From positions 1,886,001 to 1,950,000 of the forward strand of contig NZ_JAIPME010000002.1 in assembly GCF_019957155.1 (NCBI RefSeq): 64,000 nucleotides of DNA. The letters run 5' to 3'. The position numbers and the translations under genes were made by a program. This stretch comes from Anaerococcus murdochii (GTDB lineage Bacteria > Bacillota > Clostridia > Tissierellales > Peptoniphilaceae). Positions within the stretch are counted from its first letter, which is position 1. Each line of letters begins with the position of its first letter. The notes below the pieces were generated by a model. The model saw only the letters and a program-made list of their open reading frames with translations, had not been told where the DNA came from and searched no databases. Shown piece by piece: positions 23,822-34,136 of this stretch.

Positions 23822-24093
23822 AAAACCTCCGTCTCCTTACTCCACTTGGGTAAAGAGACGAAGGGTAATTACATAATTTTTACCTTCCGCGGTACCACTC
23901 TTCTTCATCTAATGATGCACTTAATTCATTTAATGAATAGCTCTGTAACGGGAGCTCCCGTCAACCACTTACATTTCAGTGGGAAGCTTGATGGTGATTT
24001 TCGTTAAAATATCTCAGTATCTTCCACCAGCCGATACCTCTCTAAATAGATTCTCTTAACTACTCTTCCATGTCATAGCTTTTATTTATCGTT
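23822..24093 (-). ncRNA. T-box leader, isoleucine specifier (AUC)
   Basis: A tRNA-sensing riboswitch controlling livKHMGF by transcription antitermination. The T-box bulge segment AGTGGTACCGCGG is at 23887-23899 on the minus strand. Stem I has AGAG near its base and GGTGGAAG distally; its basal helix pairs GCTATGACATGG with CCATCAAGC. By alignment with the well-studied glyQS layout (CGAAA-codon-A), the specifier codon is ATC at 23996-23998 (CGAAA-ATC-A), that is isoleucine. The terminator (arms CGTCTC...TTAC and GTAA...GAGACG then T7) is at about 23822-23862. Uncharged tRNA-Ile is expected to open the operon. Confidence 0.93.
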
Positions 24094-24263: not shown

Positions 24264-25589
24264 TTATAATCCTAGTAATAATGATGCTACTTCAAAATAA
24301 ATTAAAAGTACACCAGTATCTACAATTGTAGTTATAAGTGGACCTGCCATTACAGTTGGATCTATGTTTAGTTTATCAGCTAAAAGTGGTAATAGACCAC
24401 CTATGATATTTGATAGAACTATTGTTAAAAATAAGGTCAATGATACTGTGAGATTTACAGCAAGACTCACATTGTCCACAACAAGAATCCTCAAAAAGTT
24501 GATCGCAACAAGAACTAAGGAAACAAGTGTACCTACTCTCATTTCTTTAAAAATAACTTTTAAAAAGTCTTTAGCTGAGAGGTTGCCTGAGAATAATTGA
24601 GTCATAATTGTTGTTGATGACTGACTTCCAGCATTACCACCAGAGTCCATTAGCATAGGTATATAAGCTGTTAGGGCAACTGCTTGTGCAAGTAGACTTT
24701 CATACCTTTGGATAATAAAACCTGTCATTGTTGCGGTTATAAGACAAATTACTAGCCAGGTTGTCCTGTTTTTCGCAATAGTAAATGACGATTCATCGAT
24801 GTATGATTCGCCCTGATCAGAAATACCTGTGATATTTGCAAAGTCTTCTTGTAACTCTTCATGAACTACGTCGATTACGTCTTCTGCTGGTACGATACCG
24901 ATAAGCCTGCCTTCTGAATCGATAACTGGTACCTCTCCTAGGTCATATTTTATAGATAGCTTTGCTACTACCTCTTGGTCATCAGTTGGACCTACAGCTG
25001 CTGTAATTTGTTGGGTAATTGATTCTATGGTTGCTTTTTTGTTTCTGATTAAGTCTGCTATAAATACAAAACCAGTAAGAACTAAAGACTCATCAGTAAC
25101 CCAGATTTGTTCAAGTTTTTCCGCATCCAAATCAGATTCCATAACTTTTTTCATAGCCTCTGCAGGAGTTTCTGTTGACTTCACTGATAGGAAGTTTACT
25201 GTCATGATAGAACCAACAGATTCTTCTGGATAGCCTAAAAGTTCGTTGATTATTTCCCTTCTGTCGCTATCAATATGGCTTGTCATTAACTTCTTAACCA
25301 TATTTGCAGGAAGTTCTTGCAAGGTATCTACAAGTTCGTCTTCGTCTAGTTCCTTGACAAGGTCTTTGATATTTTCTTCTGATAGGATTTTCAAAACCCT
25401 ATCCTTATTTTCTGGTTTTAGCTCTGTAAAGGTATCAGCAAGTAAATCCTTATTTAATAGCTTAATCCAAATAGCTACAGATTTTTCTGGCAATACCTCA
25501 AGTCTATCGGCTATATCAACCGGGTTCATCTTGTTGATTTCTACTTGGAGTTGTTTTAGATTATCAACGTTATAATTTCTTTCTGCCAT
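24264..25589 (-). CDS. mgtE: Magnesium transporter MgtE
   Basis: A Mg2+ channel of 441 residues. The N-terminal superhelical domain (DRLEVLPEKSVAIWIKLL, repeated L-x-x-L helices) is followed by two CBS domains (from ESVGSIMTVNFLSV to about residue 255) and five transmembrane segments with the pore signature LMDSGGNAGSQSSTTIM. MgtE is gated by intracellular Mg2+ through the N and CBS domains. RBS AGGAG is 6 bases ahead of the ATG. A 190-nt leader with its own small ORF precedes it; I see no M-box consensus in that leader. Confidence 0.96.
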   Translation of the reverse strand: MAERNYNVDNLKQLQVEINKMNPVDIADRLEVLPEKSVAIWIKLLNKDLLADTFTELKPENKDRVLKILSEENIKDLVKELDEDELVDTLQELPANMVKKLMTSHIDSDRREIINELLGYPEESVGSIMTVNFLSVKSTETPAEAMKKVMESDLDAEKLEQIWVTDESLVLTGFVFIADLIRNKKATIESITQQITAAVGPTDDQEVVAKLSIKYDLGEVPVIDSEGRLIGIVPAEDVIDVVHEELQEDFANITGISDQGESYIDESSFTIAKNRTTWLVICLITATMTGFIIQRYESLLAQAVALTAYIPMLMDSGGNAGSQSSTTIMTQLFSGNLSAKDFLKVIFKEMRVGTLVSLVLVAINFLRILVVDNVSLAVNLTVSLTLFLTIVLSNIIGGLLPLLADKLNIDPTVMAGPLITTIVDTGVLLIYFEVASLLLGL

Positions 25590-25781
25590 TCATTTCTCCT
25601 ATTTAGTTAAAATATTCTTTAGAATATTTTTTGTATAATGGCAAATAGAAATCCGCCACTATACTAGTTTCTTATTTTCTTACGCCTTCGATAGGGCGAC
25701 GCCTTATCCATTTCTCCTCCTTAATTTCAAAAGTTTTTCTAAATAAAAATATTTTTATGTAAGATTTACATAAAACTTCCT
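25590..25781 (-). promoter_or_regulatory. Long structured 5' leader of mgtE
   Basis: Between the predicted start (about 25780) and mgtE lie, in order on the minus strand: a perfect 10-bp inverted repeat TTTTATGTAA/TTACATAAAA (25753-25775); a strong RBS AAGGAGG; a 15-codon ORF; a hairpin beginning right after its stop (arms TATAGTGGC 25655-25663 and GCCATTATA 25634-25642, one G-U pair); and a second hairpin AAAATATTC-TAAA-GAATATTTT just before the mgtE RBS. GGCG/CGCC segments inside the ORF could pair alternatively with the GGCG of the first hairpin. It does not resemble the known M-box. Confidence 0.65.
25664..25711 (-). CDS. Putative mgtE leader peptide, 15 residues
   Basis: ATG at 25711 follows AAGGAGG at 4-base spacing, one of the best ribosome binding sites in the region. 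It encodes MDKASPYRRRKKIRN and then TAG. The composition (an early Asp and Pro, then RRRKK) recalls the enterobacterial mgtA leader peptide MgtL, which has acidic and Pro residues followed by PRRRLK and whose translation responds to Mg2+. There is no sequence homology that I can claim. Its place between promoter and mgtE fits a leader-peptide role; function is inference. Confidence 0.6.
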   Translation of the reverse strand: MDKASPYRRRKKIRN

Positions 25782-25786
25782 TCATC

Positions 25787-25815
25787 ATTATACATTTTTT
25801 GCAAGTTTTCTGCAA
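25787..25815 (-). promoter_or_regulatory. Promoter of mgtE
   Basis: TTGCAG (25810-25815) and TATAAT (25787-25792) are spaced 17 bp. The -35 box touches the stop codon of the HAD-family gene, giving mgtE its own promoter and a leader of about 190 nt. Confidence 0.8.
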
Positions 25816-26511
25816 TCATCCAAAGATTTTTGCTAGACAATCCTCAACTTCATTTAGGGAACTTATTTCTAAATCAATTGGCAAATCTAAGTGGTTCTTC
25901 TTGCTATGTGGATTAAACCAAATTGTTTTTATTTTTGCATTAACCCCACCTAGCATGTCTGATGTCAAAGAATCACCTATTATTACATAATCATCAAGGG
26001 TCCTCGATCCAATTTTTTCAAATACATATTCAAAAAATCTCTCGTCTGGTTTTTCAAAACCAATTAGCTCCGAAATAAATGACTCCTTAAGTATTTTGTT
26101 CAAATCAGATCCCTCAAGCTTTCCACTCTGGGCTGTTAGGGACCCATTTGTGACTGCATATTGGTCATATTTACTTGCTAATTTTTTTACAGCTTCCTTG
26201 CCGTAGGGATTAAAAACATAGGTCTTTCCAAGTTCAATTTGATAATTGTGGTTGAAGTCTTCAACTATATCGGTTTGTATCCCATATTTCTCAAAAAAAT
26301 CCCTAAACCTACCCAATAGTACCTCATCCCTAGTAACCTCATTTCGCTCAAGCCTTTCCCAATAAATATTGTTTATATTTTTGTAGGTCTTAAGCATATC
26401 TTCGGTCGGCTTATCTAAGTTAAATATCTCAAAACACTTATATATAGCTGCTGTTTCTGCCAAATCAAAATTTAAAAGTGTCCCATCTATATCCCATAAA
26501 ATTTTCTTCAT
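25816..26511 (-). CDS. HAD-superfamily phosphatase (YjjG-like)
   Basis: A protein of 231 residues. HAD motif I is DIDGTLLNF (Asp7, Asp9), motif II TNGS, motif III Lys in FEKPDER and motif IV IIGDSLTSDMLGG. The cap is helical. Overall pattern resembles YjjG-type pyrimidine nucleotidases that remove non-canonical nucleotides; the substrate is inferred. The RBS is a GGGG stretch ahead of the ATG. Confidence 0.85.
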   Translation of the reverse strand: MKKILWDIDGTLLNFDLAETAAIYKCFEIFNLDKPTEDMLKTYKNINNIYWERLERNEVTRDEVLLGRFRDFFEKYGIQTDIVEDFNHNYQIELGKTYVFNPYGKEAVKKLASKYDQYAVTNGSLTAQSGKLEGSDLNKILKESFISELIGFEKPDERFFEYVFEKIGSRTLDDYVIIGDSLTSDMLGGVNAKIKTIWFNPHSKKNHLDLPIDLEISSLNEVEDCLAKIFG

Positions 26512-33431: not shown

Positions 33432-34109
33432 TTAAATTTCTGGCCAAGTTTCTTGCTTGTAGCACATATCCCAAAACATATACTCAAATAAGCCTGTTTT
33501 AACTACTATTTCTTCAAGGACCTTTAATTCTCTTTCAGGTTTGCCTTCGGCAAGCTTATTAATAAGATCCATGGCGTTTTCATTTAGGTCTGTAAATTCA
33601 TCTGATGAATACATTCCTATCCACGACCCATAATTTTCGCCCTCCAAGGCCCCCGGAATTTTGGCAAGCTCAAGGCCTATATAATTATAGCACCATGAAC
33701 AAGCAAGTAGGGCTGCCGCTACGTTTTCTACCCCACCTGCCTGAGCTTTATTTAGCATATAAGAAGTATAGGCGGTATTGATTGCGGATTGATCAGTCGC
33801 TTCAAGGTCTTCTTCTGGAATGCCGAAAGTCTTAGCATAGGACCTGTGTAGGTCCATTTCCACAAATAAAACCCCATCAAGGCCCTTGGCAAAAGAATTC
33901 ATTGTTCCAAGGTCTGTAGCCTTTGATGTTCCTATCGCAAATAATCTCGCATATTCAATTAGATAGACATAATCTTGCATTAGCCAATGTTTAAATTTTT
34001 CAAGGTCTAAAGTCCCATCTCCCATGCCTTGAACAAATGGATGTTTGAAGCACGCCTCCCAAATCCCCTTGATTTTTGGATAAATCCTATCAGTAAATTT
34101 TTCTGACAT
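33432..34109 (-). CDS. tenA: Thiaminase II / aminopyrimidine aminohydrolase TenA
   Basis: Salvages the pyrimidine part of degraded thiamin. About 225 residues, with HPFVQGMGDGTLDLEKFKHWLMQDYVYL, the active-site Cys segment LLACSWCYNYIGLELAKI and ENAMDLINKLAEG. I chose ATG at 34109 (MSEKFTDR), whose RBS is the 3' arm of the hairpin at 34117-34136; a longer frame from 34130 would begin within the hairpin. It is controlled by the TPP riboswitch upstream. Confidence 0.93.
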   Translation of the reverse strand: MSEKFTDRIYPKIKGIWEACFKHPFVQGMGDGTLDLEKFKHWLMQDYVYLIEYARLFAIGTSKATDLGTMNSFAKGLDGVLFVEMDLHRSYAKTFGIPEEDLEATDQSAINTAYTSYMLNKAQAGGVENVAAALLACSWCYNYIGLELAKIPGALEGENYGSWIGMYSSDEFTDLNENAMDLINKLAEGKPERELKVLEEIVVKTGLFEYMFWDMCYKQETWPEI

Positions 34110-34136
34110 AAAAAACCTCCTTGTATTCACAAGGAG
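34110..34136 (-). promoter_or_regulatory. Terminator/RBS-sequestering hairpin of tenA
   Basis: CTCCTTGT (34129-34136) pairs perfectly with ACAAGGAG (34117-34124), followed by G and T6 and then directly by the tenA ATG. The 3' arm is the Shine-Dalgarno sequence, so the same hairpin could both terminate transcription and hide the RBS. Confidence 0.75.

Follow-up and report, generated by a model that had tools for sequence, protein, structure and literature searches.

Upstream of mgtE in Anaerococcus murdochii, within a window of 64,000 nucleotides (the whole stretch of DNA that was analysed), lies a leader that probably acts as an attenuator of mgtE read by the ribosome, in the manner of the enterobacterial MgtQ and MgtL leaders; we put the probability of this reading at roughly 0.6. 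Sequence comparison supports the view that the leader carries a conserved leader ORF of mgtE, and its placement among putative leader-ORF attenuators is well supported. In the proposed mechanism the leader ORF would be translated from its own strong ribosome-binding site. Ribosomes halting or dropping off within the first 6-7 codons (MD...P) would cover arm 1 and leave arm 2 uncovered, and the free arm 2 could then pair with arm 3, leaving the mgtE start open (ON). Ribosomes reaching the stop codon would instead cover arm 2, so that arm 3 would be free to shut the mgtE start codon (OFF). The early halt is proposed to occur at low cytoplasmic Mg2+, on the reasoning that an acidic residue near the N terminus, with proline after it, would destabilise the ribosome, as in enterobacterial MgtL/MgtQ; both this signal and the direction of the response are what we infer. 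One logic would serve the Anaerococcus and Peptoniphilus leader types described below, a ribosome held or lost early giving ON and a finishing ribosome giving OFF.

The features of the region are collected in Table 1. The window MgtE is a full-length protein by its TIGR00400 and Pfam matches, and an MgtE search of its own genome gave one match. A HAD-family gene on the minus strand ends at 25816, after which come the promoter, a leader of ~190 nt and mgtE. Directly 3' of mgtE is a T-box leader (RF00230, 121 bits, 23851-24085, minus strand), which precedes a branched-chain amino acid type ABC transporter operon. A TPP riboswitch (RF00059, 34140-34233, minus strand), at 55 bits barely above the cut-off, precedes the ORF at 33432-34130.

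Table 1. The mgtE gene and elements of its leader, in window coordinates
Feature	Position	Strand	Description and basis
Promoter	25787..25815	-	-35 TTGCAG 25815-25810 (3/6), -10 TATAAT 25792-25787, spacer 17; sequence
5' leader hairpin	25753..25775	-	TTTTATGTAA/TTACATAAAA; fold
Leader-ORF ribosome-binding site	25716..25722	-	AAGGAGG; sequence; strong SD in 12/12 orthologs
Leader ORF	25664..25711	-	15 codons + TAG, ATG 25711 to TAG 25664, MDKASPYRRRKKIRN; sequence and conservation
Arm 1	25691..25698	-	codons 5-7, CGCCCTAT, possible partner of arm 2; sequence, fold
Arm 2 (A)	25651..25664	-	5' side of 14-bp hairpin, begins at stop codon; fold, duplex test
Arm 3 (B)	25633..25649	-	3' side of hairpin, partner arm 2 or arm 4; fold, duplex test
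AT-rich hairpin	25609..25630	-	AAAATATTC/GAATATTTT; fold
Arm 4 (C)	25578..25590	-	region of the mgtE start codon, partner of arm 3; fold, duplex test
mgtE	24264..25589	-	Mg2+ transporter/channel MgtE, 441 aa; TIGR00400 369 bits; Pfam MgtE_N, CBS, MgtE

The initial annotation had described a clear promoter, which is only half right. The -10 element is perfect, is kept in the close relatives L002-L005 and stands at a spacing of 17; however, the -35 element TTGCAG agrees with TTGACA at only 3/6 positions, and the TTGCAG/TATAAT site was not in the list produced by a consensus promoter scan of the window. The ribosome-binding site and the 15-codon ORF MDKASPYRRRKKIRN proved to be exactly as claimed. 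The stop codon does abut a hairpin, which has 14 bp (25664-25651 with 25646-25633) and whose first base is the last base of that codon. The leader (25790-25575) folds better than 200/200 shuffles (z -3.93), and the stretch from the leader stop to the mgtE SD has a z of -7.74, with 0/300 shuffles as good. The alternative pairing suggested between the ORF and this hairpin is available as CGCCCTAT (25698-25691) with ATAG-T-GGCG (25662-25654), but it is absent from the MFE fold of the window; the folds predicted for the ribosome-free RNAs of A. lactolyticus and A. degeneri do contain it. By eye, the stem of the 5' hairpin (25753-25775) is seemingly kept among close species while its sequence varies (TTCTATG/CATAGAA in L002, GCCTATA/TATAGGC in L004).

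The relevant partner for pairing is the start codon of mgtE, which the earlier description did not include. Arm 3 of the window leader, the 3' arm of the hairpin, pairs with the start codon (25590-25578) with a duplex energy of -13.8 kcal/mol (p 0.023, 300 shuffles). Across the 12 Anaerococcus leaders, the A:B pairing beats shuffles in 12/12 (p <= 0.013, 300 shuffles each), and the same B pairs with C in 10/12 (p <= 0.05), the values for L006 and L007 not being significant. The ORF of L010 runs on and was scored in the duplex test as ending at codon 12. C is the mgtE start codon in the window's clade and the SD in the other clade, so that the bases differ and the logic is the same.

Footprint folding, in which a ribosome is placed on the leader, gives mixed model evidence of switching. 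In the window, the predicted value for an unpaired mgtE AUG is 0.59 for the free RNA, 0.53 with the ribosome at codon 7 and 0.05 with it at the stop; for the L003 start codon the corresponding values are 0.30, 0.59 and 0.07. For the SD, the values in the same order are 0.14, 0.82 and 0.14 in L012, and 0.13, 0.47 and 0.13 in L011. Contrary folds were also obtained: in L004 and L005 a ribosome at codon 7 brings closure, in L006-L008 there is little change, and in L010 opening is seen when the ribosome stands at the late stop. Over 53 leaders that passed stricter selection rules, and with a statistic that ignores relatedness, SD opening is greater than in shuffles both for an early ribosome minus free RNA (0.085 vs 0.022, p 0.007) and for early minus late (0.055 vs -0.016, p 0.002). 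Individually, 22 of the 53 shift as predicted by >0.02 and 16 shift in the opposite direction by >0.02, and the unoccupied leaders are no more closed than shuffles (p 0.18, 53 leaders).

The second line of evidence is the distribution of the ORF. Among 31 Anaerococcus genomes, an mgtE ortholog of at least 71% identity is present in 12, only a diverged one (36-38%) in 18, and none in 1. Across 260 nt of leader plus 45 nt of gene, nine relatives agree letter for letter with named Anaerococcus records. Each of the 12 orthologs has upstream a small ORF with its own strong SD; the ORF begins 95 to 122 nt ahead of mgtE, and in 12/12 its second residue is D/E and its sixth P. Such an ORF was found in 0/18 diverged loci within 350 nt upstream, the best locus being counted in each genome. 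The peptides are MDKASPYRR, MDKAVPDPDFKT, MDNSSPSR, ME(N/K)GGPD, MDLSEPCPRRKLKK and MDKSGP(N/K/D)LRL. The small ORF that the initial annotation had suggested looking for in relatives is therefore present in 12/12 genus orthologs, and like ORFs recur across the class. The Pro-Tyr-Arg-Arg-Arg codons whose conservation it proposed to test fared less well: D/E2 and P6 are kept, neither Tyr7 nor the run of Arg is conserved throughout the genus, and the emphasis on Tyr-Arg-Arg-Arg was accordingly set aside.

At the next ortholog loci (L040-L065) a leader ORF is found in 20/26, including L056, where the start codon reads ATA; none is present in the 330 nt read upstream in L043, L055 and L057-L060. 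Peptoniphilus peptides include MDTSRPWK, MDSGDPS, MDASGPNK and MDSCDRS. Where mgtE lacks the leader ORF in L055, L057, L059 and L060 (Peptoniphilus nemausensis, P. rachelemmaiella, Aedoeadaptatus), a short terminator-like hairpin, AAAGGATTGAG..CTCGATCCTTTTTT, is seen near the mgtE start instead. In Peptoniphilus and its relatives the ORF appears to contain an antiterminator arm. In 18/18 Peptoniphilus-type leaders tested (p <= 0.038) the 5' arm of a downstream terminator has a pairing partner in a later part of the ORF; the leaders tested are the 20 ORF-bearing ones from L040-L065 other than L047 and L056. The search expression for the terminator arm was written after viewing these sequences and favours a match, and in L062 it is doubtful whether the paired arm belongs to a terminator. 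Both partners vary in concert (AGTCTA/TAGACA, TGCCTA/TAGGCA, ATAGTTATAG/CTATGACTA). This duplex-energy test was used because automatic terminator finding was unreliable, returning none in 7/20 leaders and wrong or doubtful hairpins in others. In footprint folds of L044, L040, L041 and L045, the predicted terminator is reduced when a ribosome occupies the first codons; L042 shows the opposite response and L065 no switch.

For a broader survey, 80 mgtE loci were taken from the class, one per genome, from the best matches listed among 391 class genomes with some of these passed over, and 20 family loci were added. The ORF was defined by a start codon, an SD of at least 5 nt, D/E at residue 2 and a length of 8-45 codons, a definition fixed before the 100 regions were read and after a trend had been noticed in L040-L110. 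It was found in 52/100 regions (48/80 class, 4/20 family), in a sample that leans to proteins resembling the window MgtE and in which some loci are mutually close relatives; 2 of the 4 family cases (L191, L192) repeat the Peptoniphilus type. Dinucleotide shuffles of the same regions (20 rounds) gave 4 to 10 (mean 5.65). When residue 2 was left free, D occurred in 48 regions, followed by L in 10, V in 8 and E in 6. The common class forms are MDxxPLP (MDSGPLP, MDSSPLPEGK, MDPGPLP, MDSDPLP) and MDAGSSSGTIPDR.

The same definition applied upstream of TrkH genes, as a control, gave 1/40 (shuffles 0-7, mean 2.15). Before CNNM/CorC genes it gave 6/40 (shuffles 0-5, mean 2.65), a numerically small excess, and 5 of the 6 begin MDDSP, MDDIP or MDDYP. 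CNNM/CorC leader ORFs with one of these starts occur in several class genomes (L219:1516-1620 on the plus strand, reading MDDSPLPERN, and L243, L245, L249, L263 and L265); the CNNM gene of the window genome itself (L260) has no such leader ORF by this definition. A pattern search for an SD followed by MDxxP(L/F)P in the 391 whole genomes gave 17 matches, against 2 for the reversed pattern. Nine lie directly before mgtE and 1 (L219) before a CNNM protein (Pfam E 1.5e-49); of the remainder, 3 begin long genes and 4 are short or unclear. With its matches mostly before mgtE or CNNM genes, the MDxxP(L/F)P start is therefore tied to Mg2+-type transporters.

By analogy, the nearest known architecture is that of MgtQ, an 8-codon ORF with Asp2 and Glu5 in the Salmonella mgtB leader, where, in the account available from PMC8092293, stems 1:2, 2:3 and 3:4 are formed and 3:4 closes the mgtB ribosome-binding site. 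The likeness to what PMC8092293 describes lies in the short ORF with strong SD and acidic residue 2, the position before an Mg2+ transporter gene, and the alternative stems. MgtQ differs in being enterobacterial, in lying in the mgtC-mgtB intergenic region and in serving a P-type ATPase rather than MgtE; its output, as given there, is closure of the RBS, whereas the putative outputs here are the start codon in the window, the SD in sister species and a terminator in Peptoniphilus (PMC8092293). Two traits of the MgtL/MgtQ type are found in the Anaerococcus leaders, namely a conserved short ORF with strong SD before an Mg2+ transporter gene (12/12 orthologs; TIGR00400) and complementarities for alternative stems (A:B 12/12, B:C 10/12), the function of these stems being predicted. 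MgtL proper is excluded, the downstream gene being mgtE, not mgtA. A reference cited for MgtL is Chadani et al. 2017.

The resemblance to MgtL that the initial annotation had drawn is real when set against the MgtL sequence as it appears in PMC8934632. MgtL, the leader peptide of mgtA, begins MEPDPTPLP (PMC8934632), and is reported in the available portions of PMC8934632 and PMC11282234 to destabilise the ribosome on Mg2+ starvation. The acidic residue 2, the early prolines and the arginines after them are shared with the class MDxxPLP form and with Anaerococcus MDLSEPCPRRKLKK and MDKASPYRRRKK; by the same accounts MgtL differs in having the mgtA upstream region as its target and Rho-dependent termination, whereas here the gene is mgtE and no Rho step is indicated. 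As far as these sources describe them, MgtL and MgtQ each have two acidic residues, compared with one in the window peptide, while the L004 peptide has D2, D7 and D9. Two further leader elements are less close. The uORF2 behind Mycobacterium tuberculosis M-boxes is conserved, in the text available from PMC12810186, and invariably has an early proline; it is likewise a small ORF in an Mg2+-related leader, but it is M-box-controlled, is said to be specific to mycobacteria and precedes other genes (PMC12810186). The mgtE motif SRC-65-1 is also an mgtE leader element, but in Thioalkalivibrio only and, in the description available from PMC11109978, a riboswitch candidate without a described ORF. 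In open-access full texts, the scope of our search, we found no description of a leader ORF for mgtE in Firmicutes.

That low Mg2+ would be the trigger is suggested by the downstream genes and by the likeness to MgtL/MgtQ, and the suggestion is weaker for the window peptide, with its one acidic residue, than for MDKAVPDPD or MDDSP. It is unlikely, yet deserves weighing, that the same attenuator answers another signal, the halt arising from a lack of charged tRNA-Pro or of help from EF-P or an ABC-F protein, or from general slowing. An early proline in 12/12 leaders would suit this, and there is precedent in MgtP and MgtM of the mgtCBR leader, which respond to charged tRNA-Pro and ATP in the account available from PMC8092293, and in the action of EttA on MgtL, as reported in the available part of PMC11282234. 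The conserved acidic residue 2, on the other hand, is not involved in sensing of this kind, and CNNM/CorC-type genes, whose common ground with MgtE is Mg2+ or cation balance, not proline, are preceded by the same start.

The M-box (RF00380, ykoK leader), an RNA aptamer without an ORF that serves as an mgtE leader in Firmicutes, is the usual explanation of Mg2+ control over mgtE there. No M-box and no other Rfam 15 family scores above the gathering cut-off in the window leader, as the initial annotation had it for the M-box; at E <= 10 only sub-threshold matches appear, the best being rli52 with 19.7 bits of 70. Under stricter filters RF00380 is found in 14/130 family genomes and in 0/31 of the Anaerococcus genomes among them; of the class genomes 90/391 have it. 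The Rfam scans thus rule out an M-box or other known RNA as the identity of the window leader. At the 80 class loci, 53 have a leader ORF (an MDxxP-like or related motif, widened after viewing the data), 15 an M-box within 450 nt upstream, 11 both and 23 neither. An M-box and a leader ORF occur together in Caloranaerobacter azorensis (L069) and Streptococcus henryi (L068). In L142, L143 and L181, ~340-380 nt before mgtE, a second ORF of the type M-x-C/R-x-C/Y-PETSRDANGS (e.g. MDTRCYPETSRDANGSTGITEVRFYLM) lies in the M-box region, and is probably the aptamer read as codons.

An undescribed riboswitch, the RNA itself sensing Mg2+ or another ligand with the ORF as by-product or tuner, seems to us distinctly improbable. 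Codon usage bears on this. Among class ORFs of the MDxxP kind (38, chosen for that start, 34 of them distinct), the 34 use 3 codons at P5, 4 at P7, 4 at S3, 4 at G4, and TTA, TTG and CTG at L6; this synonymous variety in the MDxxPLP type favours the peptide. The Anaerococcus ORFs encode P6 by CCC in 11 cases and by CCT in 1, and in most of them a GCC/GGC mini-hairpin extends over this codon; the RNA may therefore contribute in that genus. The riboswitch view also gains from the leader folding far better than shuffles, and from the MDA[D/G]SS-type leaders, 25/39 of the loci scanned, whose three conserved stems use the ORF's own codons. Inspection by eye shows that a conserved stretch further downstream could pair with codons 2-9 of this type (GRCAGTAGTAATGGCACA with TGTGTCTTACTCCTGYC), and GCGTCC with the region of the start codon, and in many the stop lies on the 3' arm of the third stem; this pairing accounts for the conserved residues, which we therefore rejected as proof of a peptide signal. 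These leaders (L073, L080, L090, L091, L098 and others) lie ~210-270 nt before mgtE, with an ORF usually of 28 codons and a third conserved pairing, GGCCGAAGC/GCTTCRGCC; the one tested (L080) had no Rfam match. Against a riboswitch, the stop codon sits at arm 2, no Rfam family matches the window leader or that of L080, and the fold is wholly different between groups while the peptide start is constant. A leader without regulation, AT-rich and stabilised by its hairpin, in which the ORF would have arisen by chance, is very improbable, although the shortness of this putatively translated ORF might speak for it, and we reject it on the counts given (12/12 vs 0/18, 52/100 vs 4-10 shuffled, TrkH 1/40) and on the double complementarity of one arm.

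The ribosome-read attenuator thus remains the preferred reading for the window. Tentatively, and at somewhat less than even odds, a ribosome at an MDxxP start may be a general Mg2+ sensor of Clostridia-like Firmicutes, wired variously to closure of the start codon, closure of the SD or an intrinsic terminator, before the unrelated MgtE and CNNM/CorC genes; such a sensor would be commoner than the M-box at the sampled mgtE loci, sometimes stacked behind one, and in relation to MgtL/MgtQ either convergent or very old. Should ribosome stability indeed be the means by which these ORFs sense Mg2+, a mechanism described for a few enterobacterial leaders would prove widespread, and the natural variety of starts (MDxxPLP, MDDSP, MDTSRPW, MDKSGP) would be a ready set for testing N-termini that read Mg2+.
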